Origin: an uncultured Bacillota bacterium
GTDB lineage: Bacteria; Bacillota_I; Bacilli_A; RFN20; CAG-826
Length of the DNA: 64,000 nucleotides
Reading direction: 5' to 3'
Assembly: GCA_949289845.1 (NCBI GenBank)
Contig: CASEPN010000001.1
Location: forward strand, 306,887-370,886
In this document: piece after piece, positions 8,604 to 41,862 of the stretch
How the letters are laid out: each line of letters starts with the position of its first letter
Numbering within the stretch: the first letter of the stretch is position 1
The notes under the pieces: generated by a model
What the model saw: only the letters and a program-made list of their open reading frames with translations
Databases searched by the model: none
Told to the model about the DNA's origin: nothing
Made by a program: the position numbers and the translations under genes

Positions 8604-8609
8604 TATAAT
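8604..8609 (+). promoter_or_regulatory. -10 box directly before ftsK (leaderless type)
   Basis: TATAAT, then 6 nt, then ATG at 8616. No Shine-Dalgarno sequence lies between. The preceding 8548-8603 shows no convincing terminator and no clear -35 hexamer. Confidence 0.65.
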
Positions 8610-8615
8610 CCGGGC

Positions 8616-13954: not shown

Positions 13955-14245
13955 ATGCTCTCCAGCGTTTTTCTCACGGGCCGGCTCGGCGAGAAGCTCG
14001 ACGACAAGGTCCGCTACGTCGAGGTGGACCGGGTCATTCCAGGCCCTACGGGCAAGTTCCTGACGGACAAGATCCCCTGTCGCGGGCTCTATGGGCCGAG
14101 GGGACGATTCATGAGCGCTCCGGCCGGCTCCTTCATCGCCCTCAAGGGCCGGATCGAGATGGACGAGCGCCACGGGCTCATCATCGTCGCCGAGATCGAC
14201 GAAATGCATCGCCCTAGGAAAGAGGAGCCCTCGCCCTCGCTATAA
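13955..14245 (+). CDS. Small OB-fold (SSB-like) protein
   Basis: 96 residues. The pattern FLTGRLG near the N-terminus, a central CRG strand and IALKGRIEMDE...IVAEID near the C-terminus follow the order of beta strands in single-stranded-DNA-binding proteins, but it is shorter and lacks the acidic C-terminal tip of replicative SSB. A good ribosome site (AAAGGAGG) precedes the ATG. The stop codon TAA is embedded in the TATAAT box of plsC. A role in DNA or RNA binding is inferred from the fold guess only. Confidence 0.45.
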   Translation: MLSSVFLTGRLGEKLDDKVRYVEVDRVIPGPTGKFLTDKIPCRGLYGPRGRFMSAPAGSFIALKGRIEMDERHGLIIVAEIDEMHRPRKEEPSPSL

Positions 14246-14246
14246 T
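14241..14246 (+). promoter_or_regulatory. -10 box before plsC (leaderless type)
   Basis: TATAAT, then 6 nt, then ATG at 14253. The box overlaps the TAA stop (14243-14245) of the preceding small gene. Confidence 0.6.
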
Positions 14247-14252
14247 GGCGGC

Positions 14253-15056
14253 ATGCTGAAGTACCTTCGCCTCATCTTCGGGATCGTCCCGATGCTCCTC
14301 CTGGAATGGCCGCGCTTCGTCTGGTACGCCCGCCATCCGGAACGGACGCCCCTCGAAGTCCGCTACAGGAGGATCCGGCGGCTCGTCCTCCGGCTCATCC
14401 GCCTCCTCCATCCCGACTTCCATATCGAGGGGCGCGAGCTCTTCCGCAGGATGCTCGAAGGGGAGCGGAGCTTCCTCCTCGTCTCCGACCACGTCTCGCT
14501 CCTCGACCCGGTCATCCTCATCTTCCTGTCCGAGAGGCCCCTCAGCTTCGTCGCGAAGAAGGAGGTCATGTCCTACCCCCTCGTCAGCCCGATCCTCCGC
14601 GCCCTGGGCGGGCTTTCGCTCGACCGCGAGGATCTCAAGGGCTCCGTCCGCGTCGTCCTCGAGCTCAGGAAGGGCCTTGAGAAGGACGAGGCGGCCTGGG
14701 GCATCTTCCCCGAGGGGACGAGGAGGAAGGATCTCGAGGGCCCCGTCCTTCCCTTCCACCCCGGCTCCTTCAAGGCGGCGCTCAGTGCGAAGAGGGACGT
14801 CCTCCTCCTGGCGATGGAGGGCGAGGAGCGCCTCCTTTCCTTCACTAGCTGGAGCCGCTACCCGATCGGTGTGCGCTTCCTCGAGAGGATGTCGATGGAG
14901 GATGCCGCCAAGGAAGGGAAGACTACCGTTGAGATCGCCGAGCATGCGGAGAAGGTCGTCCAGGAAGGGGTCGCCCGCATCCACGAGGAGAACGAGGACT
15001 ACGTGACCAGGGGGCTCCACAAGCTTCCCTGGCGAGGCGGGGCGAAGGTTCGCTAG
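14253..15056 (+). CDS. plsC: 1-acyl-sn-glycerol-3-phosphate acyltransferase
   Basis: 267-residue membrane-associated acyltransferase that makes phosphatidic acid. The catalytic H(x4)D motif is SDHVSLLD (about 79-86), and the substrate-binding FPEGTRR is at about 151-157. An N-terminal hydrophobic stretch with WPRF could anchor it. The length matches PlsC of Bacilli. The predicted mRNA is leaderless. It ends at a terminator shared with the convergent rsmF gene. Confidence 0.9.
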   Translation: MLKYLRLIFGIVPMLLLEWPRFVWYARHPERTPLEVRYRRIRRLVLRLIRLLHPDFHIEGRELFRRMLEGERSFLLVSDHVSLLDPVILIFLSERPLSFVAKKEVMSYPLVSPILRALGGLSLDREDLKGSVRVVLELRKGLEKDEAAWGIFPEGTRRKDLEGPVLPFHPGSFKAALSAKRDVLLLAMEGEERLLSFTSWSRYPIGVRFLERMSMEDAAKEGKTTVEIAEHAEKVVQEGVARIHEENEDYVTRGLHKLPWRGGAKVR

Positions 15057-15108: not shown

Positions 15109-16458
15109 CTACTTCGCGATGTCGAGCTCCGGATCCCATTCGGGACGGCGGAGGCCCTTGGGGTAGTGGTTCTTCGCGACTCCCTTCACGACCTTGACGA
15201 ACCCGAGGTTCAGCCCCATGTAGCTGATGATCGCGAATCCGTCCATCCTGTGGAGGGGGAAGGTGAGCCCCTGGATGTAGCACTTGGCCTCCTCCTTCCC
15301 GACGGGGATGGAATGTTCCGGCCCGAGGTAGGCGGCCAAATGATGGTCGGGGATGTAGATCTGGCTCGAGCGCATCTCGAGGAGCTTCACCCCGTAGCGG
15401 AGCAGGTTCATGTGGCTGACGTCGAAGGACCTTTCCAAGGAATAGAACTTCTCGCGGTGGAACTCGTTGCTCCGTCCCTCGAGACCGTAGTGGCGGACGA
15501 AGTCCCGGTACTTCGAGTAGGGGGCGAGCTCGATGACCGACCTCGGGGTGGGGACGAGCTCCCCGGGCTTCTCGATGAGGCAGACGAACTGGCCTTCTCC
15601 CTGGTAGCGGTGGGGGAAGAGATAGACGGCCTCGGGGACGTCCGCGGGGTGGAAGAATCTCTCTCCTTCCGGGAGGGGGACGAGCCGTGCCTCCCTTCTC
15701 GTGCGGAGGAACTCGAGGATGGTGCCCTCGTTCTCCTCATAGGAGAAGGAGCAGGTGCTGTAGGCGATCCGTCCGCCGGGCTTCAGCATCTCGTAGGCGT
15801 AGCTGAGGAGCTCGACCTGGCGGGCGTGGTTCACCATGACCTTGCGCTCGCTCCAGTCGGCGAGGACCTCGGGGTCCTTCCGGAACATCGCCGAGCCGCT
15901 GCAGGGAGCGTCGACGAGGATCTTGTCGAAGCACTCGGGGTAGGACTCGTGGTTGAAGGAGACGTCGTTGGAGGTGACCACCATGTTCCCGCGGCCCATC
16001 CTCTCGACGTTCTGGGAAAGGCTATGGGCGCGAGGGAAGCTGACGTCGTTGGCGACGAGCACGCCCTTGTCCTCCATGAGGAGGGAGGAGGCAAGGGCCT
16101 TCCCTCCGGGGGCGGCGCACATGTCGTAGACGACCTCCTCGGCCCTGGGGGCGAGGAAATAGGCGGGCATCATCGCCGCGGCATCCTCGATCGAATAGAC
16201 CCCGGCATCGTAAAGGATGCTCTTCCCGAACTCGTAGTCGGACTTCCTGTAAAGGAAGGCGTGGGGGACGTCCGGGTGGGGGACGACCTTGGGGAAACGG
16301 GCGAGGAAATCCCCGTCGCCCATCTTCTTCGTGTTCAGGATGAGGGCGTAGGTCCTCTCGCCCTCCTCGACGCTTGCCCGGAGTGGGGCTACCTCCTCTT
16401 CGGGAAGATGCTTCCGTAGGGAGTCCCAGAAGCCGGAGGGTGCTGACGCTTGGCTCAT
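15109..16458 (-). CDS. rsmF: RsmF/YebU-type rRNA (cytosine-C5) methyltransferase
   Basis: 449-residue SAM-dependent RNA m5C methyltransferase. Visible are the SAM loop MCAAPGGK (about 114-121), the catalytic VDAPCSGSAMF (about 184-194) and the second Cys motif STCSF (about 246-250). A C-terminal region of about 160 residues fits the RsmF-type RNA-binding extension. The substrate, a cytosine in 16S rRNA, is assigned by family only. The start is the ATG whose upstream TATAAT is 6 nt away on the minus strand. Confidence 0.88.
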   Translation of the reverse strand: MSQASAPSGFWDSLRKHLPEEEVAPLRASVEEGERTYALILNTKKMGDGDFLARFPKVVPHPDVPHAFLYRKSDYEFGKSILYDAGVYSIEDAAAMMPAYFLAPRAEEVVYDMCAAPGGKALASSLLMEDKGVLVANDVSFPRAHSLSQNVERMGRGNMVVTSNDVSFNHESYPECFDKILVDAPCSGSAMFRKDPEVLADWSERKVMVNHARQVELLSYAYEMLKPGGRIAYSTCSFSYEENEGTILEFLRTRREARLVPLPEGERFFHPADVPEAVYLFPHRYQGEGQFVCLIEKPGELVPTPRSVIELAPYSKYRDFVRHYGLEGRSNEFHREKFYSLERSFDVSHMNLLRYGVKLLEMRSSQIYIPDHHLAAYLGPEHSIPVGKEEAKCYIQGLTFPLHRMDGFAIISYMGLNLGFVKVVKGVAKNHYPKGLRRPEWDPELDIAK

Positions 16459-16464
16459 AGGGCG

Positions 16465-16470
16465 ATTATA
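16465..16470 (-). promoter_or_regulatory. -10 box before rsmF (leaderless type)
   Basis: TATAAT on the minus strand, then 6 nt, then ATG at 16458. The 49-bp gap to the divergent pdp gene (16508) also holds AT-rich sequence that could serve pdp, but I see no clear plus-strand hexamers. Confidence 0.6.
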
Positions 16471-16507: not shown

Positions 16508-17817
<1,310 letters not shown>

Positions 17818-17821
<4 letters not shown>

Positions 17822-18279
17822 AGGTCGTCCTCACGAGGGTCCGTTCCGCCTCGGTCTCGATTGCCGGGGAAGTCGTCGGCGCGATCGGGCAGGGCTATCT
17901 CCTCCTCTCGGGCTTTGCCCCGGGGGACACGGAGCAAACCGTCTCCCGCATGGCGGAGAAGATCCATAAGCTCCGGATCTTCGAGGACGAAGGCGGGAAG
18001 ACGAACCTTTCCATCGATTCCGTCCGCGGGAACGTCCTTTCCATCAGCCAGTTCACCCTGTACGGGGATTTGACCGGAGGGAACCGCCCTTCCTTCTTCA
18101 AGGCGATGGATCCCCATGAGGCGGAGCGGCTCTACCTTCGCTTCAACGATGCGCTCCGGTCGTATTTTCCCAGCCTCCAGGAAGGTCGCTTCGGCGCCGA
18201 CATGGAAGTCAGCTCGCTCAACGACGGGCCCTTCACCCTCGTCCTCGATTCCGAGGAACTTTTCGGAGGGAAGCGATGA
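17818..18279 (+). CDS. dtd: D-aminoacyl-tRNA deacylase
   Basis: 153-residue DTD that hydrolyses D-aminoacyl-tRNA (and Gly-tRNA(Ala)). The active-site SQFTLYG (about 78-84) and the Gly-cisPro loop NDGPFT (about 138-143) are both present. The ATG overlaps the pdp stop and its stop overlaps the mnmA start, giving a tight pdp-dtd-mnmA operon. Confidence 0.95.
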
Positions 18280-19409
18280 AGGTCCTCCTCGGTTTCTCAG
18301 GCGGGGTGGACTCCGCGATTTCCGCCTATCTTCTCAAGAAGGAAGGGCACGAAGTGACCGGCGCCTTCATGCGGAACTGGGACGCGCTCCTTAATAACGA
18401 CTATCTCGGGAACCCGACCGCCGGCGACTCCCAGTGCCCGCAGGAGAAGGACTACCAGGACGCTCTTTCCCTTGCGCGGAAGATCGGGATTCCCCTCGCC
18501 CGCATTGACTTCGTGAAGGAGTACTGGGACGAGGTGTTCTCCCTTTTCCTTGAGGAATACAAGAGAGGAAGGACCCCGAACCCCGACATCCTTTGCAACA
18601 GCAAGATCAAGTTCGGGCCGTTCCTGGACTACGCGAAGGAGCATGGCTTCGAAAGGATCGCGATGGGCCACTATGCGCGGAAGGCCGTCCTTGACGGGCT
18701 TGCCCATGTCGCCGTCCCGAAGGACAAGGACAAGGACCAGACCTATTTCCTCGCCGATCTGAAGGAATGCCAGATCGCCCCGTGCCTTTTCCCGATGGAA
18801 GGGATCCTCAAGACGGAGGCAAGGGAGCTCGCGAGGTCGCTTGGCCTTAGCGAGTGCGCCGACAAGCATGGCTCCACGGGGATCTGCTTCATCGGAGAAA
18901 GGAACTTCCGCCCGTTCCTTGAGAACTATCTTCCAGCCAATCCCGGCAAGATCGTCGACGGGGACACCGGCGAGGCCATCGGGATGCACGAAGGAGTCCT
19001 TTTCTATACCCTAGGCCAGCGAAAGGGCCTCGGGATCGGCGGCGTCAGCGGCCGCGGGGAGGGGCGCTGGTACGTCTACCGGAAGGACGTGAAGGAAAAC
19101 ATCCTCTATGTCGCTCAGGGCGAGGGCGACGAGAGGCTCTTGAGCGATGAGTCGGAGATCGAGTCCCTCAACTGGATCGGTCCTTTGCCGGAAAAGGAGA
19201 GGGAGGTAGTCGCGCGGTTCCGCTATAGGATGGAAGGGGTGCCTTGCCTTTTCTCCGCCAGGGGAGAGGGAAGGGCGAGGCTCCACCATCTCGGACCGGT
19301 CAAGGCCGCCACCCCGGGGCAGTGGGCCGCAATATACAATCGGGATGGAGTGCTCCTTGGGGGAGGCATCATCGATAAGGTCTGGAGAAAAGGGAAACTT
19401 ATTTCCTAA
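18276..19409 (+). CDS. mnmA: tRNA-uridine 2-sulfurtransferase MnmA
   Basis: 377 residues. It makes the 2-thio group at U34 of Lys, Glu and Gln tRNAs. The PP-loop is GFSGGVDSA (about 6-14). The two catalytic cysteines lie in NPDILCNSKIKF (about 107) and STGICFIG (about 208). The length is normal. It is the last gene of the pdp-dtd-mnmA operon. No good terminator follows. Confidence 0.97.
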   Translation: MKVLLGFSGGVDSAISAYLLKKEGHEVTGAFMRNWDALLNNDYLGNPTAGDSQCPQEKDYQDALSLARKIGIPLARIDFVKEYWDEVFSLFLEEYKRGRTPNPDILCNSKIKFGPFLDYAKEHGFERIAMGHYARKAVLDGLAHVAVPKDKDKDQTYFLADLKECQIAPCLFPMEGILKTEARELARSLGLSECADKHGSTGICFIGERNFRPFLENYLPANPGKIVDGDTGEAIGMHEGVLFYTLGQRKGLGIGGVSGRGEGRWYVYRKDVKENILYVAQGEGDERLLSDESEIESLNWIGPLPEKEREVVARFRYRMEGVPCLFSARGEGRARLHHLGPVKAATPGQWAAIYNRDGVLLGGGIIDKVWRKGKLIS

Positions 19410-19459: not shown

Positions 19460-20683
19460 ATGGCAAAGCGTAAGAAACCCTCTAAGAAGAAACTCGTTGG
19501 ATTCCTCGTCTCCCTCCTTATCGTCCTCATCCTCGCCTTAGTCGGCTACTGCGCCTACGAATTCGTTTTGAAGGACCGTCTCGCCGGCTCATCCTCGGAC
19601 AGCTCCTCCAGCGAGATTTCCTCGAGCCAGTCCTCAGGAAGTCTTCCTGAGGGTGGCTACGACCCTATCTCCTTCCATTTCCTTGACCTCAAGATCCGCT
19701 ATACGGGCGATTGCACCTACATCAAGGCGGGCGAGAACGACATCCTCATCGACGCCGGGGCGCGGCAGGCTTCCGCAGTCGTCATCGATGAATACCTCAG
19801 CCAGCATGTCGAAGACGGCAAGCTCGAATACGTGATCGCGACCCACGCCCACCAGGACCATATAGCAGGATTCGTCGGGAACGCCGACGACTCCCTCCCT
19901 GGAGGCCGCACGGGGATCCTCTACCAGTACAAGGTGGATACCTTGATCGACTTCCCCCTCACCGACGCGACCACGAACATCTACAAGAACTACAAGATTG
20001 CCGTGGAGCATGCGGTCGAGGAGGGGGCGACCCACTACACTGCCCTCCAGTGCGTGAAGGAGGAAGCCGGGGCGAAGAAGGTCTATGAGCTAGGGCAGGG
20101 GCTTACGATGGAAGTCCTCTACAACTACTTCTACGACCATGACAAGAGCGACTTCAAGAAGGACTTCCCCGAGATGGGCGGCTCCTTCAGCGAGGAGAAC
20201 GACTTCTCCGTCTCCCTCCTCTTCCGCCAGGGGGAGAAGGCGATGCTCTTCACGGGGGACTCGGAGGAATGGAGCGAGCACTCCCTCGTGACCCAGAACG
20301 ACCTTCCCGAGAACGTCGTTCTCTATAAGGGCGGTCACCACGGGTCATACACCGCGAACGGAGAGGAACTTCTAAAGGCGACGAGCCCCGATGCGATCGT
20401 CTTCGAATGCACCGCAGGGAACGACGAGTACGCCTCGACTCCCGAGCATTCCTTCCCGGCCCAGGAGACGATCGACCGCCTCGCCCCTTACACCGAAAGG
20501 GTCTACGTGACCCAGCAGGGGGACTGGGAGGATGCTTCGCATTTCGAACCCATGAACGGGACGGTCGTCGCATCCTATGACTCCGCGGGGAAGGAATCCT
20601 TCTCTTTCACCGGGAGCGAGCTTCCTCTCAAGGACAGCGAGTGGTTCCTCGAGAACCGGACGATGCCCGAGGCCTGGCGCTAG
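19460..20683 (+). CDS. Membrane-anchored ComEC-like metallo-beta-lactamase-fold protein
   Basis: 407 residues. A basic N-terminus and one membrane helix (about 13-36) are followed by a Ser-rich linker (about 44-65). The extracellular domain resembles the hydrolase domain of ComEC: an early GDCTYIKAGEND strand, the metal motif THAHQDH (about 131-137), a TGDSEE motif (about 263-268) and KGGHHGSY (about 285-292). In competence systems this domain is proposed to degrade the non-transported DNA strand; a free-standing exported version would act outside the cell. It is directly followed by two secreted nucleases, which supports a role in nucleic-acid breakdown. Phosphodiesterase activity is inferred. 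Confidence 0.75.
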   Translation: MAKRKKPSKKKLVGFLVSLLIVLILALVGYCAYEFVLKDRLAGSSSDSSSSEISSSQSSGSLPEGGYDPISFHFLDLKIRYTGDCTYIKAGENDILIDAGARQASAVVIDEYLSQHVEDGKLEYVIATHAHQDHIAGFVGNADDSLPGGRTGILYQYKVDTLIDFPLTDATTNIYKNYKIAVEHAVEEGATHYTALQCVKEEAGAKKVYELGQGLTMEVLYNYFYDHDKSDFKKDFPEMGGSFSEENDFSVSLLFRQGEKAMLFTGDSEEWSEHSLVTQNDLPENVVLYKGGHHGSYTANGEELLKATSPDAIVFECTAGNDEYASTPEHSFPAQETIDRLAPYTERVYVTQQGDWEDASHFEPMNGTVVASYDSAGKESFSFTGSELPLKDSEWFLENRTMPEAWR

Positions 20684-20686
20684 CCC

Positions 20687-20715
20687 TTGCCCTCTTCCTT
20701 CCCCTCCTTGATAAT
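20687..20715 (+). promoter_or_regulatory. Promoter of the first endonuclease gene (leaderless type)
   Basis: TTGCCC (20687-20692), a 17-bp spacer and GATAAT (20710-20715), then 6 nt to ATG at 20722. There is no ribosome site. Confidence 0.55.
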
Positions 20716-20721
20716 CCGTCC

Positions 20722-22122
20722 ATGAAGAGACGTTATCTTTTGTTCGCAGGGATCGCCCTCCTTGGGTCCTTGGCCCTCGGGCTCGCGGTTGCGCCTTCCT
20801 TGGGGAACGCCCTTGCCATTGGCGCGAGGATGGAACCCGCAAGGCTATGCGCGGACATAACGTTCGGGACGGGAAAATACACGGAATCCGATGGTTTTTC
20901 GGGGAAGGTCATCCCTGTTACCAACATCGGTGACGTTTCGGTGGAGGCGACCAAAGCCTTCTGGGGAGCGGAGGGCGACGCAGTCCGCTTGGGAAGCGGC
21001 AGCGCAGCCGGTTCCCTTACGATCAACTTCTCCGAGCCCCTCCTCATCGAAGAAATCAAGGTGCTTTGCTACCTATACGACAGTTCTGGCTCCCTTACTC
21101 TCGAGACGGACCAAGGGCGAGGAGATACTCTGGCTGTCACATCCACCGTCGCACCGTCCATCTCGGACGACTCCACTGACCCAGGATATGTCTTCTCCGA
21201 CCTCGGAGGACTGGATGGCGTTTCGACCGAATCGATCTCTTTGTCTAACGTGAAGGGCAAGAGAATCTGTCTATGCAAGGTCGTCATCGCCCACTACGGG
21301 GAAGGTTCCTCCGCCGGGACGGAGAGCTCCTCCTCGACCTCCTCTTCCAGGCCGGACACCTCGATTGATACCTCGATTCCCGATGGTTTGCCTGCTTATT
21401 ACAAGGATATCGACTGGACTCTCAAAGGGGTGGACTTGATGGACGAGCTCTCCTACCTCATCAACCCCCACACGAAATTGTCGTACGCGAAGCTTTGGGA
21501 CGCCTTCTACGAGGTCGACGCGGACGAGGACGGCAGGCTCATCGACATCTATAGCGACAACCGCTGGACAAAGGACCATCAGCAAGGCACCGGGGGCGCC
21601 AGCGCGGAAGGCCAGTATTACAACCGGGAGCACTCCGTCCCCAAGAGCTGGTTCGGCTCCCGGGAAAGCCATCCCACCTACACGGACCTCCACCACCTTT
21701 TCCCGACGGACAGCTACGTGAACAGCAGGAGGAGCAACAATCCCTTGGGCGAGGTCGGCTCCGCCACCTACACGAGCGGGAACGGCTCGAAGCTCGGGAA
21801 GTCCTCCTACCCCGGCTATACCGGCACCGTCTTCGAGCCGATCGACGAATACAAGGGCGACCTCGCCCGCGTCTACTTCTACTTCGTCACCTGCTACCGG
21901 GACGATGCCACGAACTGGCAGGACGGGACCGAGCAAAACATCGACCCGACCGAGGAATTCCGCCTGAAGCCCTGGTCGCTCGACATGTTCCTCGAGTGGG
22001 CGGAGATGGATCCCGTCTCCCAGAAGGAGATCGACCGGAACGAGGCGATTCATCGCGTCCAGGGGAACCGGAATCCCTTCGTCGACTATCCCGAGGCGGT
22101 TTCCCTCGTCTTCGGCGCCTAG
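20722..22122 (+). CDS. Secreted endonuclease I (EndA/Endonuclease_1 family), long form
   Basis: 466 residues. A signal peptide or anchor (about 1-35) is followed by a beta-rich domain of about 150 residues, a Ser/Thr-rich linker (about 195-215) and the nuclease domain. The nuclease signature NREHSVPKSWFG (about 303-314), then DLHHLFPTD and NSRRSNNPLGEV, is that of the His-Me finger endonuclease I family, which cuts DNA without sequence preference. The N-terminal domain could bind a surface ligand but is not recognised. The C-terminal domain is closely similar to the next gene's, including a 47-bp identical stretch. Confidence 0.85.
   Translation: MKRRYLLFAGIALLGSLALGLAVAPSLGNALAIGARMEPARLCADITFGTGKYTESDGFSGKVIPVTNIGDVSVEATKAFWGAEGDAVRLGSGSAAGSLTINFSEPLLIEEIKVLCYLYDSSGSLTLETDQGRGDTLAVTSTVAPSISDDSTDPGYVFSDLGGLDGVSTESISLSNVKGKRICLCKVVIAHYGEGSSAGTESSSSTSSSRPDTSIDTSIPDGLPAYYKDIDWTLKGVDLMDELSYLINPHTKLSYAKLWDAFYEVDADEDGRLIDIYSDNRWTKDHQQGTGGASAEGQYYNREHSVPKSWFGSRESHPTYTDLHHLFPTDSYVNSRRSNNPLGEVGSATYTSGNGSKLGKSSYPGYTGTVFEPIDEYKGDLARVYFYFVTCYRDDATNWQDGTEQNIDPTEEFRLKPWSLDMFLEWAEMDPVSQKEIDRNEAIHRVQGNRNPFVDYPEAVSLVFGA
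21763..21809 (+). repeat. 47-bp repeat, copy 1, shared by the two endonuclease genes
   Basis: Identical to 22763-22809, exactly 1000 bp downstream, in the segment coding ATYTSGNGSKLGKSS. Flanking codons differ at synonymous sites, so this patch is more conserved than the rest, as after gene conversion. Confidence 0.85.
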
Positions 22123-22134
22123 CCTTGTTTCCGA

Positions 22135-22163
22135 TTGTCCTTCCGGGAAGACGGGCGGATAAT
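22135..22163 (+). promoter_or_regulatory. Promoter of the second endonuclease gene
   Basis: TTGTCC (22135-22140), a 17-bp spacer and GATAAT (22158-22163), then 8 nt to ATG at 22172. A near-leaderless transcript is predicted. Confidence 0.55.
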
Positions 22164-22171
22164 CCGGGCAA

Positions 22172-23116
22172 ATGAAGACACGAACGTTTTTCCTCTCCCT
22201 GCTTCTCGTAGGAGCAAGCGCGCTCGGCGGCATCGCCCTTTCCTCCTGCGTCGAGGAATCCTCCTCGGACGGGACCGTCGGTTCTTCCTCTTCCGCCGAG
22301 GGGAGCTCTTCCTCGGATGGGATGGGAGCGGATTCCTCCTCCTCTTCCTCCTTGGAGGAAGGCGGGGAAGGCGATCTTCCCGACTGGGACACGGAGGTGG
22401 AGCGCTACTACGAGGACGTGGATTGGACGAAAGTGGGAAGCGACCTCATGAAGGACCTCACCGACGCGATCCGGCCGCACGACACGCTTTCCTACAGCTC
22501 CCTTTGGTCGGCCTACCGCACGACCGACGTCCGCGAGGACGGGACTCTCTGGGACATGTATAGCGACATCCATTGGAAGCCCGGGCAGAAGCAGTGCGGG
22601 AACTACAAGAAGGAAGGGGACTGCTACAACAGGGAGCACTCCGTCCCCAAGAGCTGGTTCGGCGACAAGAGCCCGATGAACACGGACCTCCACCACATCG
22701 TCCCTACGGACGGATGGGTGAACAACAAGAGAGGCAACAATCCCCTGGGAGAAGTGGGAAGCGCCACCTACACGAGCGGGAACGGCTCGAAGCTCGGGAA
22801 GTCCTCCTATCCCGGCTTTAGCGGCACCGTCTTCGAGCCCGTCGACGAGTACAAGGGGGACTTCGCCCGCATCTACTTCTATTTCGTGACCTGCTACGCC
22901 TCCACGAGGTCGAGTTGGGAGACCGGGAGCACCAACCTCAGCAATTCCGGGCTCGGGCTCAACTCCTGGAGCAGGGAGATGTTCCTGGAGTGGGCGGAGA
23001 TGGATCCCATCTCCCAGAAGGAGATCGACCGGAACGATGCGGTCTACGAGACCCAGGGGAACCGCAATCCGTACGTGGACAACCCCAATGCCGCGGAGCT
23101 CGTCTTCGGAGACTGA
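22172..23116 (+). CDS. Endonuclease I-family lipoprotein
   Basis: 314 residues. The signal peptide ends in lipobox LSSC, so it should be lipid-anchored outside the membrane, and a long Ser/Glu linker (about 30-70) holds the nuclease away from the surface. The motifs NREHSVPKSWFG, DLHHIVPTD and NNKRGNNPLGEV match the upstream paralogue and the endonuclease I family. It is likely non-specific DNA degradation for nutrient or phosphate release. Paralogy plus the shared 47-bp block indicates tandem duplication. Only one base separates its stop from the RNase gene. Confidence 0.88.
   Translation: MKTRTFFLSLLLVGASALGGIALSSCVEESSSDGTVGSSSSAEGSSSSDGMGADSSSSSSLEEGGEGDLPDWDTEVERYYEDVDWTKVGSDLMKDLTDAIRPHDTLSYSSLWSAYRTTDVREDGTLWDMYSDIHWKPGQKQCGNYKKEGDCYNREHSVPKSWFGDKSPMNTDLHHIVPTDGWVNNKRGNNPLGEVGSATYTSGNGSKLGKSSYPGFSGTVFEPVDEYKGDFARIYFYFVTCYASTRSSWETGSTNLSNSGLGLNSWSREMFLEWAEMDPISQKEIDRNDAVYETQGNRNPYVDNPNAAELVFGD
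22763..22809 (+). repeat. 47-bp repeat, copy 2
   Basis: Second copy of the identical 47-bp segment (see 21763-21809). Confidence 0.85.
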
Positions 23117-23117
23117 C

Positions 23118-23828
23118 ATGAGAAAGAAAGCGTTCGGCATCCTTCTTCTCGCGCCACTTCTATGCGCGTGCGTAGAGAATCCCTCCTCTGTCTCGTCCTC
23201 CCTCTCTTCCTCTTCTTCCGCGGGAGGGGAGTCGCTCTCCTCTTCGATCGCCGAGACGTACGAGGACGTCCCTTTCCGGGTCGCCCCCCAGGTCTCGGAG
23301 GACGGGAGGAGCGCTGACATCTATTCCTACTCCGTCGAGGATGGGGCGCTTGTGAGAACCTACGAGATCACCCTGGAAAAAGGGGAGAGTTACGTGGACT
23401 TCCAGGAGGTCGCCCTCTACTACCTCGCCTTCGGTGAGGCGCCCGCGAACTACTTCTGGGAGAAGAGACTCGCCCAGGCCTACGGCTCGGAAGGACGCTA
23501 CATGCAAAGCTTCCGGCTCGGGGACTACGACGGGCCCAACTCCTATACGGAGGCCCTGGGCGACTTCAATAAGTCCCGCGGCACCTACCTAGAGCTCGAC
23601 ATCGACGTTGACGGGAGCTACCGTCCTCAGGGGAACCGCGGGGTAGGGCGCCTCGTGATCGTCGTGGACGGGATCGAGGACTACGGGGCGGACCCCGTCG
23701 TCTACCAGACCGAGGACCACTACGACTCCTTCTCCGAGTTCTATAACTACCTGGGAGGATGGAGCGATCCCTTCGACGGGACCGGCTATGGCCTTGGGCC
23801 AAGGGAAGCGGTCCCGACCTACCGCTAG
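23118..23828 (+). CDS. Barnase-like ribonuclease lipoprotein
   Basis: 236 residues. The lipobox is LLCAC, followed by a Ser-rich linker to about residue 50. The C-terminal half follows barnase from end to end: a VALYYLAFGEAP helix, a Lys in the second helix (WEKRLAQAYG), FNKSRGTYLELDID (catalytic Glu, barnase Glu73), GNRGVGRLVIV (Arg83/Arg87 region), and YQTEDHYDSF (catalytic His102). It should be a guanyl-preferring extracellular RNase. No barstar-like inhibitor lies near it, which is tolerable for an exported enzyme. It sits with two DNases, so it likely works in nucleic-acid scavenging. Antagonism toward neighbours is an alternative. The stop overlaps the ribosome site of the sucrase gene. 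Confidence 0.78.
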   Translation: MRKKAFGILLLAPLLCACVENPSSVSSSLSSSSSAGGESLSSSIAETYEDVPFRVAPQVSEDGRSADIYSYSVEDGALVRTYEITLEKGESYVDFQEVALYYLAFGEAPANYFWEKRLAQAYGSEGRYMQSFRLGDYDGPNSYTEALGDFNKSRGTYLELDIDVDGSYRPQGNRGVGRLVIVVDGIEDYGADPVVYQTEDHYDSFSEFYNYLGGWSDPFDGTGYGLGPREAVPTYR

Positions 23829-23836
23829 GAGAACAT

Positions 23837-25192
23837 ATGGCACGCTACCGCCCTGAGATCCATCTTGCGCCTACGAAAGGCTGGATGAACGACCCGAACG
23901 GCTTTTCCCTACGTCCTGGAGGGGGCTACCGCCTTTTCTACCAGCATCACGACGCCCTCGAGGGCGAAGTCCTCATCGACTGGGCGCTTGCGGAGAGCGA
24001 GGACCTTGTCCGTTTCGAGGACAAGGGGACGTCCCTCGTCCCCACGATGCCCGAAGAGGGCGTCGGGAAGGAACCTCTTTGGGGCGGCTGCTGGAGCGGG
24101 TCCGCCTTCGAGCACGAGGGAAGGACCCATCTCCTTTACACCGCCTGCAGCAGGGACGGGGAACGGCAGGCCATCGCCATCCGTTCCGGCGACGGCCTTT
24201 TCCGGATGGATCCCTCCCTCGGCCTTCTCAAGGAACCTGAGGGAATCCCAACGGAGTTTTTCCGCGACCCCTTCGCCTTCTCTTACGGGAACAAGGACTT
24301 CGTCCTCGTCGGCGCTAGGCTTTCCGACGGGACGGGAGGGATACTCCTCTACCGGAGGGAGGGGACTTCCCTTTCCTTCATGGATACCTTCTTCCGTCTC
24401 CCTGGAAGCCACATGATCGAATGCCCGGGAATCTTCTTCCTCGAAAGCAAGGCGATCCTCGTCCTCTCGCCCATGGGGCTCGACGAGAAGGAGTGGGGCC
24501 CCCATCCTTCCTGCTATCTCGTCGGTAGGCTCGAGGAGGGGATGCGTTTCGTCCCGGAGGGGGGGCTCGCCCTTCTCGATCGCGGATACGACTACTACGC
24601 CGCGCAGCCCCTACAGGAGGGGAAGAGCGCCCACCTCGCCGCCTGGCTTTCCCTCTGGGACAAGGACCTTGGGAGGATTCCGAGCAAGGAGGAGGGTTTC
24701 ATCGGGACGATGGGGCTGGTCCGGAAGGTTTCTTTGAAAGACGGTGCCCTTTTCCAGGAATGGGAGCCTTCTTTGCTTGGATATTTTGAAAAAGAAGCGC
24801 GTTTCGAAAAGGATTTCCTGAGATTTGAGGATGCCGCCGTCTCGATGTTCTCCCTTTCTTCCGACGTTTCCTTCGAAGCGAGGCTCTTGGGCGGGGAGAA
24901 GGACGGGCTCCGCCTTTCCTATGAGGCTTCCTCGGGAATCCTCCGGATGGACGCCCACGATTCGGAGCATGTCCGCGCCGGATTGAACCTCGTCTATCCC
25001 GGGGTTCGTGAGGCTAAGGCGCTCCCAAGGGAGGAAATCCGCGTCTTCGTCGACCATTCGGTCGTCGAGGTCGTCCTTGGGGGAGGGCGGACCTGGATGA
25101 GCTCGCTCTTCTATCCTTCGACGGATCATCCGGTCCATGAGTTCCAGGGAGAGGGGCTCTCCCTTTCCTTCGCGAAAGGGAAGGCCAGCTAG
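23837..25192 (+). CDS. GH32 sucrose/fructan hydrolase
   Basis: 451 residues without signal peptide. GH32 motifs are WMNDPNGF (nucleophile Asp, about 16-23), FRDPFAF (transition-state Asp) and ECPGIFF (acid/base Glu, about 195-201). A C-terminal beta-sandwich (about 310-450) contains the typical VFVDHSVVEV strand. It is probably a sucrose-6-phosphate hydrolase or a cytoplasmic invertase. No PTS or permease lies beside it. AGGAG 5 nt before the ATG supports this start. It follows the nuclease genes closely and may be in the same transcript. Confidence 0.9.
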   Translation: MARYRPEIHLAPTKGWMNDPNGFSLRPGGGYRLFYQHHDALEGEVLIDWALAESEDLVRFEDKGTSLVPTMPEEGVGKEPLWGGCWSGSAFEHEGRTHLLYTACSRDGERQAIAIRSGDGLFRMDPSLGLLKEPEGIPTEFFRDPFAFSYGNKDFVLVGARLSDGTGGILLYRREGTSLSFMDTFFRLPGSHMIECPGIFFLESKAILVLSPMGLDEKEWGPHPSCYLVGRLEEGMRFVPEGGLALLDRGYDYYAAQPLQEGKSAHLAAWLSLWDKDLGRIPSKEEGFIGTMGLVRKVSLKDGALFQEWEPSLLGYFEKEARFEKDFLRFEDAAVSMFSLSSDVSFEARLLGGEKDGLRLSYEASSGILRMDAHDSEHVRAGLNLVYPGVREAKALPREEIRVFVDHSVVEVVLGGGRTWMSSLFYPSTDHPVHEFQGEGLSLSFAKGKAS

Positions 25193-25400: not shown

Positions 25401-28013
25401 ATGGAAAAACTGTCCGGACGGGAGATCCGCGACCGCTGGATCCGCTTCTTCGAAAGCAAGGGCCATCGCTATATCCCCGGGGTGAGCCTCATCCCCCAGG
25501 GCGACAAGTCGCTCCTTTGGGTGAACGCCGGGGTCACCGGGCTCAAGAAGTACTTCGACGGGACCGAGGTCCCTCCTTGCCGGAGGATCGTGAACGTCCA
25601 GAAGTCCATCCGCACGAACGACATCGATAACGTAGGCCACACGGCGAGGCACCACACCGTCTTCGAGATGCTGGGGAACTTCTCCATCGGCGACTACTTC
25701 CGGAAGGAGGTCATCGCCTGGGCCTACGAGATCCTCACGGACGAGGAGAAGGGCTTCGGGATGGACCCCCGGAGGCTCTACTGCACGTATAACCCCGCGG
25801 ACAAGGAAGCTTTCGAACTCTGGAAGGCGCAGGGGATCCAGGAAAGCCATCTCATCCCCCTGGAAGGGAACTTCTGGCAGATCGGCGAGGGCCCCTGCGG
25901 GCCGAACACCGAGGTGTTCTACGACCGTGGGGAAGCCTACGATCCCGAGGGCAAGGGGGTCGAGATGCTCCAAAACGAGGAGGAGAACGACCGCTACATC
26001 GAGATATGGGGCATCGTCTTCAGCCAATATAACGCGGTCAACGGCGTTCCAAGGAGCGAGTACAAGGAGCTCCCGAGCAAGAACATCGACACCGGCGCCG
26101 GCCTGGAGAGGATCGCCTGCATTCTCCAAGGGGCGGAGACGAACTTCGAGACCGACCTCTTCCTCCCGATCATCCATGAGGTTGAAAGGATCTCGGGAAA
26201 GAAATATGAGGAGAGGACCCACCTTCCCTTCCGCGTGATCGCCGACCACGCGCGCTGCCTCGCCTTCGCCCTTTCCGACGGGGCGAGCTTCTCCAACGAA
26301 GGGCGGGGCTACGTCCTCCGCCGGCTCATCCGCCGGGCGATGCGCCATGGACGGAAGCTCGGGCTCGAGAGGCCCTTCGTCCACCTTCTGATGGACGTGG
26401 TCGCCAGGGAGTACGGCGATTTCTATCCGAACCTCAGGACCGAGCTCCCCAAGGTCAGGGAAAGCGTCCGGAAGGAGGAGGAGCGCTTCCTCCGCACCCT
26501 CCTTGCGGGGGAGGAGATGCTCTCCGCGATCCTCGATAAGGGCGAGCCTCTCGACGGGGAGACGGTGTTCCGCCTCTATGACACCTATGGCTTCCCCGCG
26601 AGCCTGACCAAGGAAATCGCCGAGGAGAAGGGAATTTCCGTCGACATGGAGGGCTTCGAGAGGCTGATGGAGCGCCAGAAGGAGCTCGCGCGCTCCTCCC
26701 GGGGCGAGATCGAGAGCTTCCATAGCCAGAGCGCCGACCTCCTGGCCTTCTCCGCTCCCTCGGAGTTCTCCTACGAAGAGCTTTCCCTTTCCTCCGAGAT
26801 CACCGGGATCTTCAAGGACGGGAAGAGGGTCTCTTTCCTTTCCGAGGGCGAGGAAGGGGAGATCGCCTTCCTCAGGACGCCTTTCTATGTCGAGAAGGGC
26901 GGCCAGGTGTCTGACACGGGCTGGATCGAGGGAAAAGGGGTCCGCCTCGAGGTGGGCGGGATGAGGAGCGCTCCCCGCGGGCAGTCGCTCCATCATGTCC
27001 TCGTGAAGGAAGGGGAAGCGAAGGAAGGAGACACCCTTCTTCTCCATGTCGACGAGAGCAGGAGGAAGGCCATCGAGCGCCACCATAGCGCCACCCACCT
27101 CCTCCACGCCGCCCTTTCCGAGGTCCTCGGGGAGCACGTGGAGCAGAAGGGTAGCTTCGTTGGCCCGGATTACCTCCGCTTCGACTTCACCCACGGGAGC
27201 CGGCTGAGCGAGGAGGAGATCCGCGCCGTCGAGAGCAAGGTCGCCTCCATGATTGAGCGCGCCCTTCCCGAGAAGACCGAGGTGATGAGCCTTGAGGAAG
27301 CGAGGGGGAGCGGCGCCGAGATGGAGTTCGAGGGGAAGTACGGGGACACCGTCCGCGTCGTCTCCTTCGGCGAGGAAAGCAAGGAGCTATGCGGGGGAAC
27401 CCACGTGAGGAACGCCTCCGAGCTCATGCCCTTCCTCATCGTCTCCGAGGAGGCGATCGGCTCGGGGCTCCGGCGCATCACCGCGAAGGCGGGCGTGCCC
27501 GCCTACGAGGAGCTAAGCGCCTCCCGCCGTATCGTCCAGGGCATCTCCCGGGAGCTCGGCGTCAAGGAAGGCGAGCTTCCTATGGCCCTCCGCCAGATGG
27601 AGGAGGGACTCCGCGAGGCGAAGAAGCGCGCCCGCTCGCTCGAGGAGGAGCTCCGGAAGGGCGAGGCGCTCCGCCAGGCCTCGAAGCTCGAGCGCGTCGG
27701 GGGCGTCGACGTCCTTCTTCTCTTCCAGGAAGGCGCGAGCAGGGAGGAGCTCCTCTCGCTTGGCGACCATCTGAAGGCCAACAGGCCGGACCACCTCTTC
27801 GTCCTCGTCGGCGGGAAGGAGGGGGCGAAGCCTGTCGTCATCCTCGCCGGTGGGAAGGCTCTCCAGAAGGTCGAGGCAGGCTCCCTCATGAAGGATCTCG
27901 CCCAGACTCTCGGTGGCAAGGGCGGCGGTCGCAAGGAAAGCGCGGCGGGAGCCATCCTCTCCGTCGAGGGCTTCCCCGAGTGGTGCCACTCCTTGAAGGA
28001 GCGTCTCCTTTGA
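25401..28013 (+). CDS. alaS: Alanyl-tRNA synthetase
   Basis: 870 residues. The class II core (about 1-240) includes RRIVNVQKSIRTNDID and the TARHHTVFEMLGNFS stretch. The editing domain carries HHSATHLLH (about 555-563) and CGGTHV (about 659-664). The C-terminal region (about 720-870) has the coiled segment and DHHA1-like oligomer domain. The length is usual. A strong GGGAGG site precedes the ATG. It is controlled by the T-box. The stop overlaps the ruvX start. The alaS-ruvX-DUF1292 order is conserved in Bacilli. Confidence 0.98.
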   Translation: MEKLSGREIRDRWIRFFESKGHRYIPGVSLIPQGDKSLLWVNAGVTGLKKYFDGTEVPPCRRIVNVQKSIRTNDIDNVGHTARHHTVFEMLGNFSIGDYFRKEVIAWAYEILTDEEKGFGMDPRRLYCTYNPADKEAFELWKAQGIQESHLIPLEGNFWQIGEGPCGPNTEVFYDRGEAYDPEGKGVEMLQNEEENDRYIEIWGIVFSQYNAVNGVPRSEYKELPSKNIDTGAGLERIACILQGAETNFETDLFLPIIHEVERISGKKYEERTHLPFRVIADHARCLAFALSDGASFSNEGRGYVLRRLIRRAMRHGRKLGLERPFVHLLMDVVAREYGDFYPNLRTELPKVRESVRKEEERFLRTLLAGEEMLSAILDKGEPLDGETVFRLYDTYGFPASLTKEIAEEKGISVDMEGFERLMERQKELARSSRGEIESFHSQSADLLAFSAPSEFSYEELSLSSEITGIFKDGKRVSFLSEGEEGEIAFLRTPFYVEKGGQVSDTGWIEGKGVRLEVGGMRSAPRGQSLHHVLVKEGEAKEGDTLLLHVDESRRKAIERHHSATHLLHAALSEVLGEHVEQKGSFVGPDYLRFDFTHGSRLSEEEIRAVESKVASMIERALPEKTEVMSLEEARGSGAEMEFEGKYGDTVRVVSFGEESKELCGGTHVRNASELMPFLIVSEEAIGSGLRRITAKAGVPAYEELSASRRIVQGISRELGVKEGELPMALRQMEEGLREAKKRARSLEEELRKGEALRQASKLERVGGVDVLLLFQEGASREELLSLGDHLKANRPDHLFVLVGGKEGAKPVVILAGGKALQKVEAGSLMKDLAQTLGGKGGGRKESAAGAILSVEGFPEWCHSLKERLL

Positions 28014-28758: not shown

Positions 28759-29229
28759 ATGACCGAAACGATTCTCATGACCCAGGCGGGCCTCGACGAG
28801 CTCCGCCGGGAGAAGCGCCGCCTCCTCGACGAGGAGCAGCCGCGCGTCAAGGAAGCCCTCAAGGCCGCCCGCGACCAGGGCGACCTCAGCGAGAACGCCG
28901 ACTACGATGCCGCCAGGACCCTCCAGGCCCAGATCGAGGCCCGCATCGCTGAGATCGAGCATATCGAGGAGAACGCGAGGGTCGTCGAGCCCGGCGCGAC
29001 CATCAGCATCGGCTACCAGGTCCACTACCGCGAGGTCGAGACCGGGGAGGAGCACCAGATCCTCTTCGTCGGCTCTGTTGAGAGCGACCCCTTGGCCGAG
29101 CCCTTCCCCAAGATCAGCAGCGAGTCGCCGCTCGGGAAGGCCCTTGCCGGCCATAAGGACGGGGACGTCGTCCTTGTCGAAAGCGCCAGGCCCTACAAGA
29201 TCGAGATCCTCGCCGCCGCGGCGAAGTAG
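28759..29229 (+). CDS. greA: Transcription elongation factor GreA
   Basis: 156 residues. The N-terminal coiled-coil (about 8-75) has the Asp/Glu tip residues in GDLSENADYDAA that stimulate RNA polymerase cleavage of backtracked transcripts. The C-terminal FKBP-like domain ends with SPLGKALAGHKDGD. It has its own promoter and a strong terminator, so it is monocistronic. Confidence 0.97.
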   Translation: MTETILMTQAGLDELRREKRRLLDEEQPRVKEALKAARDQGDLSENADYDAARTLQAQIEARIAEIEHIEENARVVEPGATISIGYQVHYREVETGEEHQILFVGSVESDPLAEPFPKISSESPLGKALAGHKDGDVVLVESARPYKIEILAAAAK

Positions 29230-29245
29230 GCTCCTTCATGTCCCT

Positions 29246-29270
29246 AAGATCCCTTCGGGGATCTTTTTTC
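29246..29270 (+). terminator. Rho-independent terminator of greA
   Basis: An 8-bp stem AAGATCCC / GGGATCTT with a TTCG tetraloop is followed by a run of T. Confidence 0.92.
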
Positions 29271-29327
29271 TCTTCGGAAGGGCATATTTCTCAATTTGCC
29301 TCCTAAAAGAGGGTGGAGGTGAGAACC

Positions 29328-29870
29328 ATGATAAAAATCATCATCGGGGTGGTCATCGCCACCATCATCGGCCTCGTCGTCCTGGGCGCCGTGGAAAGCG
29401 GGCAGACGGACAGCGGGGGACTCCTCGCGGACGGCCTTGTCGTCGAGGACGGGGAGACCGTCCAGGTTTCCATCGCGGGCGAGGTGAACCGCGAGGGGAC
29501 CTACCTCATCGACTCGGGGTCCACCCTCGGGGACCTCATCCTCGCGGCGGGCTCCGCCACGGGGAACGCCGACCCCAGCGCCTACGACGTCAACTGCCCG
29601 ATCGGAGAGAGGCGGAGCTTCTACATCGCCCCTCTTTACGACAACAGCGACATCTGCGCGACCGAGCCCATCGAGAAGACGTGCATCAACACGGACGACA
29701 AGGGAAGGCTCCGCGAGATCGTGAGCGCCTTCAGCGACACCGTCGCCCAGGAGATCGTCGACTACAGGAACGCCAACGGCGACTTCCAGTGCATCGAGGA
29801 GCTGGACGATGTCAAGGGCATCGGGCCGGCCACCTTCGAGAAGTGCAAGGATCTCGTGACGCTTCGCTAG
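29328..29870 (+). CDS. comEA: Competence protein ComEA
   Basis: 180-residue DNA receptor of the uptake machinery. There is one N-terminal membrane helix (about 2-24), a SLBB-like domain (about 45-110) and a C-terminal helix-hairpin-helix pair (about 120-178, with ELDDVKGIGPATF). The ATG at 29328 is chosen over the GTG at 29313 because GGAGGTGAG lies just upstream. It overlaps comEC by 28 nt if the GTG start of that gene is right. ComEA presents double-stranded DNA to ComEC. Confidence 0.92.
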   Translation: MIKIIIGVVIATIIGLVVLGAVESGQTDSGGLLADGLVVEDGETVQVSIAGEVNREGTYLIDSGSTLGDLILAAGSATGNADPSAYDVNCPIGERRSFYIAPLYDNSDICATEPIEKTCINTDDKGRLREIVSAFSDTVAQEIVDYRNANGDFQCIEELDDVKGIGPATFEKCKDLVTLR

Positions 29871-31921
29871 CCTCTTTTCCCAGGGGAAGAGGGCGAGCCT
29901 GGCTGCCCTCGCCCCTTCCTCTCTTCCTCGCCCTCTTCCTCACGCTGAACTTCCTGCTCCTTTTTCCGGGGGCGGACTCCATCGCCCCCGGGACCGCCAT
30001 CGTCCTTCTCTTCGCCCTCTTCCTGAGGAAGGGAAAGAAATTCCTTCTCTCCTTCCTCCTCGGGGCGGGGCTTTCCCTTTTCATCCTGCTATTTCTTCTC
30101 CTGCCCCCTTGGGAAGGAGGGGAGTCCATCGGGATTATCGTCCGCGCGAAGGAAGGCTACTTCCTTGTCCAGACGGGCTTCACGAGGCTCTATGTCTCGG
30201 AGGAGGGATGCCTCCGGGAGATCGGGGACATCGTCCGCCTGGAAGGGAAGGCGGAGCCGCTCGTCATGGCGGAATACGAGAGCAGGTTCTCGTTCCGGGA
30301 ATATCTGATCGAGCGGGGCGTCAGAGGAGAGTTCGTCGGTGAGGCGGTCCCTCTTTTTTCCTTCCCCCTCCGCCTCAGGGAGTGGGCCCAGGGGTCGCTC
30401 TCCAAGGTCGGGGAGGAGGCGCGCCCGCTTCTGGATAGTCTCCTCTTTGATCGGAAGGACTACGAGGCCCTCTCGCTGTTCGAAGGCGCCGGGCTCCTAT
30501 ACTGCCTATCCGCCTCAGGACTTATCTTCGGAACCGGCCTTCGCTTCATGGACTGGTGCCTTGCCCTCTTCCTCAAGGAAAGGCCCAGGAGGATCCTCGG
30601 TTGCCTGCTTTCCATCGTTCCGATGCTGTTCCTGCTCCATAAGGCTGGCGTCTGGCGTATCTTCCTCGTCTGGAACATACGCTCCATATGTGCCCTCAAA
30701 GGGAAGAAGGCGCCTTCCGGAGCGGTCCTGAACCCTCTTCTAGGAATCGCCTTCATCGCACTGGACCCATGGCTGGTCCTAGACACTGGCTTTCGCCTCA
30801 GCTATTTCCTCGCCCTGTTCATGGGGTTCTCGAGGGAGATCACCAATCTCGCGCCCAGGAGATGGCGCCCTTTGCTTTCAAAGGCGTTGCTCCTCGCGCT
30901 TCTCTTCCCCACCTTCCCGGATGGGAACGAACTAAGCCTCCTCGCACCGTTTCGGACGATGCTCTTTCTGCCCTTCGTACTGCCATTCCTTGGAATTGGC
31001 GTTCTTGGTCTGTTCCTTCCCCTTTCTTCCGCCTTAGATGGGTATGCCCGCTTCCTAATGGATCTAGCCCGCCTTTGGGAACGGTTCGACATCAGCATCA
31101 CTTGCCCTTATCCGGACGAGCTCTTCCTTGGCCACTACTTGATTCTTGGATGCCTCTTGCTCCTCTTCTCCATAGGGCTTCGAAAACCAGCCCTTTTCCT
31201 AGGATCTGCCTATGTCGCTCCCTTTCTCTTCCTTGCTCTCCCCTTGCCCGGGGCTTTCTCCTCGCAGGTGTCGTTCATCAACGTGGGGCAAGGGGACGCT
31301 ATCCTCATCCGCGAAGGGGAGACCGCTGTCCTCGTCGATACGGGAGGGAACATGTCCGTCGACATCGCCGAGGAGGTCCTCATTCCCTTCTTCAGGAAGG
31401 AAGGCGTCCGTGATTTGGACGCGGTCATCATCTCCCATGGCGACATGGACCACGATGGGGCCCTCCCTTCCCTATACGACAACTTCGCGATAGGGGAAAT
31501 CGTCAGGGAAACCTCGCAATTCCCGTTTGAAATCGGGAATTTCATTTTTGAAAACCTCAATGATTATGGGCTTTCCGGAGAAAATGAGTCCTCTTTGGTC
31601 CTATTCCTTGGAGATTTTCTCGGGAAGGATTGGCTTTTGATGGGGGATGCCCCTTCCGAGGTAGAGGCGAAGATTATTGAAGACCATCCAGAACTTCAGG
31701 CGGATGTCCTCAAGGTCGGTCATCATGGTTCCTCGACCTCTTCCTCCCTCCCCTTTCTTCAGCAGGTCCGTCCTGAGGAGGCGATCGTCTCCGTGGGCGC
31801 CGGGAACCGCTATGGGCATCCCGATGCGGAGGTCCTCCGGCGCCTGGAGGAAGTCGGCGCGAAGGTGAGAAGGACGGATCAGGAGGGCACAATCACCTAC
31901 CGGGGCTGGGGGACACGCTAG
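29843..31921 (+). CDS. comEC: Competence DNA channel ComEC
   Basis: 692 residues from the GTG at 29843. The N-terminus has several membrane helices and a short OB-like segment (about 85-135). A central competence-channel domain (about 180-460) has many helices. The C-terminal metallo-beta-lactamase domain (about 470-692) carries FINVGQGDAILI, VDTGG, SHGDMDHDG and VGHHGSS. It moves single-stranded DNA into the cytoplasm. The start is uncertain: no ATG or TTG precedes the first hydrophobic helix in frame. The GTG inside comEA is the only standard codon, and an unusual CTG near 29901 is the alternative. The middle part is less GC-rich than its surroundings. Confidence 0.9.
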   Translation: MQGSRDASLASFPRGRGRAWLPSPLPLFLALFLTLNFLLLFPGADSIAPGTAIVLLFALFLRKGKKFLLSFLLGAGLSLFILLFLLLPPWEGGESIGIIVRAKEGYFLVQTGFTRLYVSEEGCLREIGDIVRLEGKAEPLVMAEYESRFSFREYLIERGVRGEFVGEAVPLFSFPLRLREWAQGSLSKVGEEARPLLDSLLFDRKDYEALSLFEGAGLLYCLSASGLIFGTGLRFMDWCLALFLKERPRRILGCLLSIVPMLFLLHKAGVWRIFLVWNIRSICALKGKKAPSGAVLNPLLGIAFIALDPWLVLDTGFRLSYFLALFMGFSREITNLAPRRWRPLLSKALLLALLFPTFPDGNELSLLAPFRTMLFLPFVLPFLGIGVLGLFLPLSSALDGYARFLMDLARLWERFDISITCPYPDELFLGHYLILGCLLLLFSIGLRKPALFLGSAYVAPFLFLALPLPGAFSSQVSFINVGQGDAILIREGETAVLVDTGGNMSVDIAEEVLIPFFRKEGVRDLDAVIISHGDMDHDGALPSLYDNFAIGEIVRETSQFPFEIGNFIFENLNDYGLSGENESSLVLFLGDFLGKDWLLMGDAPSEVEAKIIEDHPELQADVLKVGHHGSSTSSSLPFLQQVRPEEAIVSVGAGNRYGHPDAEVLRRLEEVGAKVRRTDQEGTITYRGWGTR

Positions 31922-39124: not shown

Positions 39125-39125
39125 T
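39120..39125 (+). promoter_or_regulatory. -10 box before lepA (leaderless type)
   Basis: TATAAT, then 6 nt, then ATG at 39132. The TAA stop of the helicase gene (39122-39124) lies inside the box. Confidence 0.6.
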
Positions 39126-39131
39126 CCGCCC

Positions 39132-41827: not shown

Positions 41828-41856
41828 TTTAATCTGTTTCTTCCCCGGTCTATAAT
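41828..41856 (+). promoter_or_regulatory. Promoter of the Fic-like gene (leaderless type)
   Basis: TTTAAT (41828-41833), a 17-bp spacer and TATAAT (41851-41856), then 6 nt to ATG at 41863. TAATCTGTTT occurs twice here (41830-41839 and 41853-41862), a direct repeat that could be an operator over the promoter. Confidence 0.55.
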
Positions 41857-41862
41857 CTGTTT

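Follow-up and report, generated by a model that had tools for sequence, protein, structure and literature searches.

The window analysed here, a stretch of 64,000 nucleotides (nt) from an uncultured Bacillota bacterium (assembly GCA_949289845.1, contig CASEPN010000001.1), carries four consecutive genes for exported proteins at positions 19460-23828, which encode a ComEC-type metallo-beta-lactamase (MBL) protein, two endonuclease I proteins (EndA1 and EndA2), and a barnase-family RNase. As judged from sequence evidence, these genes probably allow a gut member of the Bacilli that is auxotrophic for nucleotides to digest nucleic acids at its surface. The first-pass annotation of this DNA had proposed that the cell digests environmental DNA and RNA at its surface and feeds on the nucleosides, a proposal that is largely supported by the predicted auxotrophy of the genome, the co-conservation of the genes, their export signals, and their synteny with pdp.

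Exported proteins of the locus

The gene coordinates, family matches, and export signals of the four proteins all agree with their initial description as consecutive exported products. The genes lie on the forward strand and are separated by gaps of 1-49 nt. An export signal of some kind, called by motif only (signal peptide, lipobox, or transmembrane segment), is present in all four proteins, and the suggestion that they are mostly lipid- or membrane-anchored is likewise borne out: the MBL protein possesses a transmembrane helix, EndA2 and the barnase-like protein are lipoproteins, and EndA1 has a signal peptide without a lipobox. A Ser-rich stalk had been ascribed to each protein; this holds for the MBL protein, EndA2, and the barnase-like protein, but in EndA1 the Ser-rich stretch is an internal linker and no N-terminal stalk is present. 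The ratios of nonsynonymous to synonymous substitution rates against two close relatives (G018 and G026) range from 0.05 to 0.23, thus indicating that all four genes are under purifying selection and are maintained.

Both endonuclease I proteins match PF04231 over the whole domain and exceed its 25-bit cut-off. EndA1 (20722..22122; 466 amino acids; E 8.9e-68) comprises the signal peptide, an uncharacterised N-terminal domain of about 170 residues in which no family is recognised, and the Ser-rich stretch that joins this domain to the nuclease. EndA2 (22172..23116; 314 amino acids; E 2e-73) carries the lipobox LSSC and a Ser stalk in front of its endonuclease I domain. Enzymes of the endonuclease I family often cut RNA besides DNA. 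Two more endonuclease I genes occur in the same genome (G000), both apparently split over frames, at L265:2681-3300 (G000:C1 ~16700) and L266:3149-3945 (G000:C1 ~290200); these appear to be decayed copies or assembly frameshifts.

The barnase-family lipoprotein (23118..23828; 236 amino acids; lipobox LCAC; Ser stalk) scores 23.2 bits against PF00545 (E 1.1e-4), just below the 24-bit cut-off, and a profile built from 25 relatives recovers barnases of known structure (E 2.9e-4). Its residues E71, R86, R90, and H113 are invariant in the 25 sequences, and we take them to be the equivalents of E73, R83, R87, and H102 of barnase, i.e., all four of the catalytic residues tested. The likeness to barnase and binase of the RNase N1 family thus consists of a match at the level of the fold profile together with these invariant positions; in contrast to them, the window protein is a lipoprotein on a Ser stalk, contains long insertions, and has no barstar partner in its genome. 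A structure predicted for the domain from four sequences was of low confidence (mean predicted local distance difference test score 42), and the model was not used. Matches to the barnase-like protein are found in 47 of the 97 genomes searched, a few of them covering the signal and stalk only, while barstar is absent from the genome of the window and was found in only one of the 97, which speaks against a toxin-immunity pair. A second barnase-family lipoprotein is encoded in the same genome at L264:1958-4213 (G000:C1 ~157000-159200); it has 751 amino acids with a long N-terminal region, and upstream of it lies a gene for a Ser-rich lipoprotein of 511 amino acids with no Pfam match.

Besides a ComEC-type MBL domain with the motifs HAHQDH, FTGD, and HHGS, the MBL protein (19460..20683; 407 amino acids) has a Ser stalk and, at its Lys-rich N-terminal end, a single transmembrane segment. 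It matches PF00753 (E 8.9e-9) and, over its MBL part, the ComEC/Rec2 model (E 1.3e-11), and its top PDB matches are solved ComEC proteins (E 0.009). Neither a competence channel nor an OB domain was recognised in its 407 residues. Since it has a single N-terminal hydrophobic segment and reaches 43 bits against a ComEC equivalog cut-off of 190, the sequence indicates that it carries a ComEC-type domain and is not a ComEC. In ComEC/Rec2, the MBL domain lies outside the membrane and degrades DNA (PMC5031224, PMC12455585); it has been proven to be a Mn-dependent DNase, and the structure most closely related to it is that of Pce, a teichoic-acid phosphorylcholine esterase (PMC12455585). The TGD, HHGS, and H-x-[HD]-x-D-H site elements are common to ComEC and the window protein; however, the latter is free-standing and has HxHxDH where ComEC has HxDxDH, with both forms occurring among free-standing relatives. 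The partial matches of the protein to the PADLOC models LmuA and Avs1a are probably due to the common MBL fold. The nuclease role first assigned to this protein goes beyond the evidence, and the MBL protein, whose nucleic-acid substrate is inferred, is the least certain part of the proposed mechanism.

A variable slot beside pdp

The four genes occupy a syntenic slot that recurs across the genus in the order pdp-dtd-mnmA-[slot]-alaS. In the window, the upstream run starts with pdp, encoding pyrimidine-nucleoside phosphorylase (16508..17821, forward; TIGR02644, E 5.6e-170), followed by dtd for D-aminoacyl-tRNA deacylase (17818..18279, forward; TIGR00256, E 4.2e-45) and mnmA for tRNA 2-thiouridine synthase (18276..19409, forward; TIGR00420, E 1.4e-111), which forms the left border of the slot; alaS (25401..28013, forward), a marker in the synteny comparison, forms the right border. 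The contents vary from four genes of the MBL, EndA, and barnase families through three, two, and one to none. MBL-EndA-EndA-barnase is found in the window genome, G018, and G026, and MBL-EndA-barnase in G011 and G022; the shorter arrangements are MBL-EndA (G029), MBL-barnase (G014, G017, G033), MBL alone (G002, G012, G035), two or three MBLs (G004, G005, G007, G030), EndA alone (G028), and barnase alone (G027, G034, G036). In G017 and G026, one border is lost to a contig end. Five genomes have the set MBL-EndA-(EndA)-barnase and another 15 have subsets of it, all in this slot on the downstream side of pdp. None of these families occupies the slot in G003, G006, G009, G010, G019, G020, and G032; G006, G009, G010, G020, and G032, which have de novo nucleotide synthesis and enough upstream sequence, also lack pdp at that position, and G019 has pdp with an empty slot.

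The families also meet outside the slot in other arrangements. A barnase protein of 788-801 amino acids adjoins a distant MBL in G002, G031, and G035; MBL-MBL-EndA-barnase occurs with large proteins in G015 and G025; EndA-barnase is found in G087, which belongs to a different family within the order; and G082 and G093 have EndA and barnase as a divergent pair. Family neighbours were counted at about 4-5 of 17-18 places, where a rough estimate of the expectation is about 0.2-0.4, and the rough Poisson p of ~1e-6 to 4e-4 is indicative only, as it assumes a 1-2% chance of such neighbours per gene and independent places were collapsed by eye. Searches of open-licence papers for the gene combination brought up no relevant report.

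Predicted nucleotide auxotrophy and salvage

A query of joined pieces of 12 Escherichia coli proteins (PurF, PurD, PurM, PurC, PurH, PurA, CarB, PyrB, PyrE, PyrF, ThyA, and Upp) found none of the 12 in the genome of the window, which is 98.3% complete. As a positive control, the same query gave 9-17 matches each in the congeners G001, G003, G006, and G008, and 12 in G062. The absence of purD, purM, and pyrB was repeated in a second search with PurD, PurM, and PyrB across the 97 genomes. De novo nucleotide synthesis in this genome is hence incomplete, with the purine, pyrimidine, and dTMP genes undetected here and most of them found in the four congeners. Strong EndA matches (E below 1e-50) are present in none of the 14 genomes with de novo synthesis as against 20 of the 23 others, and barnases in three of the 14 as against 19 of the 23. 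The Fisher test of auxotrophy against strong EndA looks strong with p 1e-7, but it comprises a single independent pair and is not independent evidence, for a tree of AlaS from 30 members of the genus places the genomes with de novo synthesis on one side of a single branch with support 99/98.

The salvage genes noted at first in the window are secure for Pdp, DeoC, and Cdd, and the ComEC gene is clear though below its family cut-off, whereas GuaD is uncertain, being a member of the deaminase family that no named model describes well. Elsewhere, the genome encodes Udk, PyrG, DeoB, and a divergent NrdD. It additionally encodes a 5'-nucleotidase lipoprotein of 633 amino acids with a lipobox, a Ser stalk, and the Metallophos and 5_nucleotid_C domains (G000:C3, L263:3220-5121). 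Searches of the genome with E. coli queries, run without a positive control genome, found no match to Hpt, Apt, GuaB, or Tdk. A Bmp lipoprotein and a dNK kinase likewise went undetected. Should all these genes truly be absent, the cell would depend on nucleosides or nucleotides and not on bases, in agreement with digestion at the surface.

Proposed mechanism

Beyond the families, catalytic residues, and export signals described above, enzymatic activities and import steps are inferred as follows. EndA1 and EndA2 would cut DNA, and possibly RNA, just outside the membrane, where the barnase-family lipoprotein would cut RNA. The membrane-anchored MBL protein would probably trim or hydrolyse the resulting nucleic-acid fragments, and the Ser-stalked 5'-nucleotidase lipoprotein encoded elsewhere could remove the phosphates. 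The nucleosides would then be imported via some transporter, and Pdp, Cdd, DeoC, DeoB, Udk, and PyrG may channel them into nucleotides and into sugar-phosphate catabolism. Purine uptake and activation are the main gap in this account.

Several observations weigh against surface digestion for nucleotide supply. The genome has, besides the missing Hpt, Apt, and GuaB, no Bmp nucleoside-binding lipoprotein and no dNK-family kinase, other transporter and kinase families not having been searched. De novo synthesis was gained or lost once on the genus tree, so that its association with the nucleases is statistically non-independent, and three de novo genomes (G027, G034, G036) retain a slot barnase and pdp. 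Clostridia relatives of the MBL protein have neither EndA nor barnase genes inside the searched 8 kb. Finally, the content of the slot is modular and not fixed, and in G010, which has de novo genes, it holds an unrelated lipoprotein; the mnmA-alaS slot may therefore be a general site for exported-protein genes. This G010 protein (356 amino acids, L213:9375-10832) bears the motif VMSGQSNMEG, which presumably marks a resemblance to sialate O-acetylesterases.

Alternative explanations

The strongest competitor, although we judge it rather unlikely, holds that EndA and barnase feed the cell while the MBL protein is a phosphodiesterase of teichoic acid or another cell-wall polymer that shares the slot as a site for exported proteins. 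The kinship of the ComEC MBL domain with Pce (PMC12455585), the Clostridia relatives unlinked to nucleases, and the unrelated lipoprotein in the G010 slot are in its favour. However, clearly different MBL subfamilies adjoin barnase or EndA elsewhere (G002/G031/G035 and G015/G025), and the domain from ComEC is itself a proven DNase (PMC12455585).

It is improbable that the set serves mainly the supply of phosphate, nitrogen, or carbon, or the removal of extracellular DNA in which cells are trapped, and not the supply of nucleotides. The sugar would be usable through DeoC, DeoB, and Pdp, and the retention of barnase and pdp in G027, G034, and G036 is also in favour of this explanation; yet no de novo synthesis is detectable in the window genome, which makes a supply of precursors necessary.

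Antibacterial action of the exported RNase and DNases, in place of feeding, is very improbable. Toxins commonly carry barnase or HNH-like domains as their warheads, and large multi-domain exported lipoproteins of the order also bear C-terminal barnase-like domains. Against this, besides the near-absence of barstar, the short gaps leave no space for an immunity gene between the genes, the lipoboxes would hold two of the enzymes on the producer, and the genes are associated with pdp in a genome that lacks nucleotide synthesis. Equally slight is the chance that the set processes DNA for natural transformation via ComEC and not as food, given that, despite the ComEC type of the MBL protein and a comEC-like sequence about 8 kb downstream in the window and near the set in several relatives, ComEC-type matches occur in most relatives, also in those without slot nucleases, and an RNase is useless for DNA uptake.

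Surface digestion of nucleic acids for nucleotide supply thus stands as the preferred reading. A bolder version of it, which makes the free-standing ComEC-type MBL protein a nuclease acting with endonuclease I and barnase in a modular system, with cassettes swapped in a genus-wide slot by pdp, and lets this system replace de novo synthesis of nucleotides throughout a large group of Bacilli from the gut, is conceivable but doubtful.

Transcription and neighbouring genes

Neither endA1 nor endA2 has a Shine-Dalgarno sequence. GATAAT boxes lie 6 nt before the endA1 start codon (20710..20724, forward) and 8 nt before that of endA2 (22158..22174, forward), both being candidate promoters of the leaderless type, and an AT-rich -10 box upstream of EndA is kept in relatives. 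Boxes of this GATAAT kind number two in the window as against 0.39 expected, i.e., they are not rare by chance. The pattern TATAAT-N5-9-ATG occurs at five other gene starts as against 0.05 expected in the window. Including those of endA1 and endA2, boxes of the two kinds stand 6-8 nt before starts that lack a Shine-Dalgarno sequence, the others being at 8604-8618, 14241-14255, 16456-16470 (reverse strand), 39120-39134, and 41851-41865, a distribution that suggests widespread leaderless transcription in this organism. Instead of forming one operon, the locus is likely divided into two or three leaderless units, the barnase gene, 1 nt from endA2, being coupled to it. The initial description of DNase, RNase, and free ComEC-type domain as one unit is borne out in co-conservation but, taken strictly, goes beyond the evidence, for the set is modular and separate promoter-like sites precede the EndA genes.

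Between barnase and alaS, the window genome and G018 have a sucrose-6-phosphate hydrolase-like gene (23837..25192, forward; TIGR01322, E 5.6e-60, under the cut-off), which is probably outside the system. The comEC-like gene downstream of alaS, given as a stop-to-stop frame (28781..31921, forward), has its own MBL domain with HGDMDH and matches ComEC_Rec2 with E 9.5e-44 and 149.6 bits against the cut-off of 190. Farther along, positions 57962-61099 encode an exported-looking protein of 1045 amino acids with a Hint/intein-like domain, adjoining a C39-family peptidase protein (61210-62391).

Relation to known systems and implications

Mycoplasmas are an established case of surface nucleases that feed cells dependent on nucleotides (PMC12115388, PMC9740415, PMC11729948). 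Analogous to the present case, membrane-bound nucleases such as MnuA and 5'-nucleotidase lipoproteins supply precursors to mycoplasma cells of limited metabolism (PMC12115388, PMC11729948); however, those nucleases have SNase or other folds in place of endonuclease I, barnase, and MBL, and some of their genes lie in operons with ABC transporter genes, whereas no transporter genes adjoin the slot here. Loci for nucleic-acid degradation are also known in Izemoplasmatales: Xianfuyuplasma coldseepsis zrk13 (PMC8397711), Hujiaoplasma nucleasis zrk29 (PMC10470597), marine sediment DNA degraders (PMC8289736), and Ca. Bathyoplasma (PMC7761423). These wall-less or reduced relatives of the Bacilli degrade extracellular DNA and/or RNA and possess clustered nuclease genes, 5'-nucleotidases, and nucleoside salvage, with de novo synthesis reduced in some. 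Their clusters differ in containing an EddB-like DNase, a thermonuclease, NrnA, an extracellular ribonuclease, and ABC transporters, while the free ComEC-type MBL protein, the endonuclease I and barnase set, and the mnmA-alaS slot present here go unmentioned in the consulted passages of those reports. The strategy is hence already known; what seems to be new is the set of genes, their modular slot next to pdp, and the occurrence in this lineage of gut Bacilli.

The locus offers a natural setting for testing as nucleases the free-standing ComEC-type MBL proteins, which are found here in Bacilli and Clostridia. Furthermore, it is predicted that the uncultured Bacilli of this group subsist in the gut on nucleic acids that come from digesta or from dying cells. 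Such nucleic-acid feeding would partly account for the small size of their genomes, and it suggests that cultivation could be attempted with nucleosides, or with RNA and DNA, in the medium.

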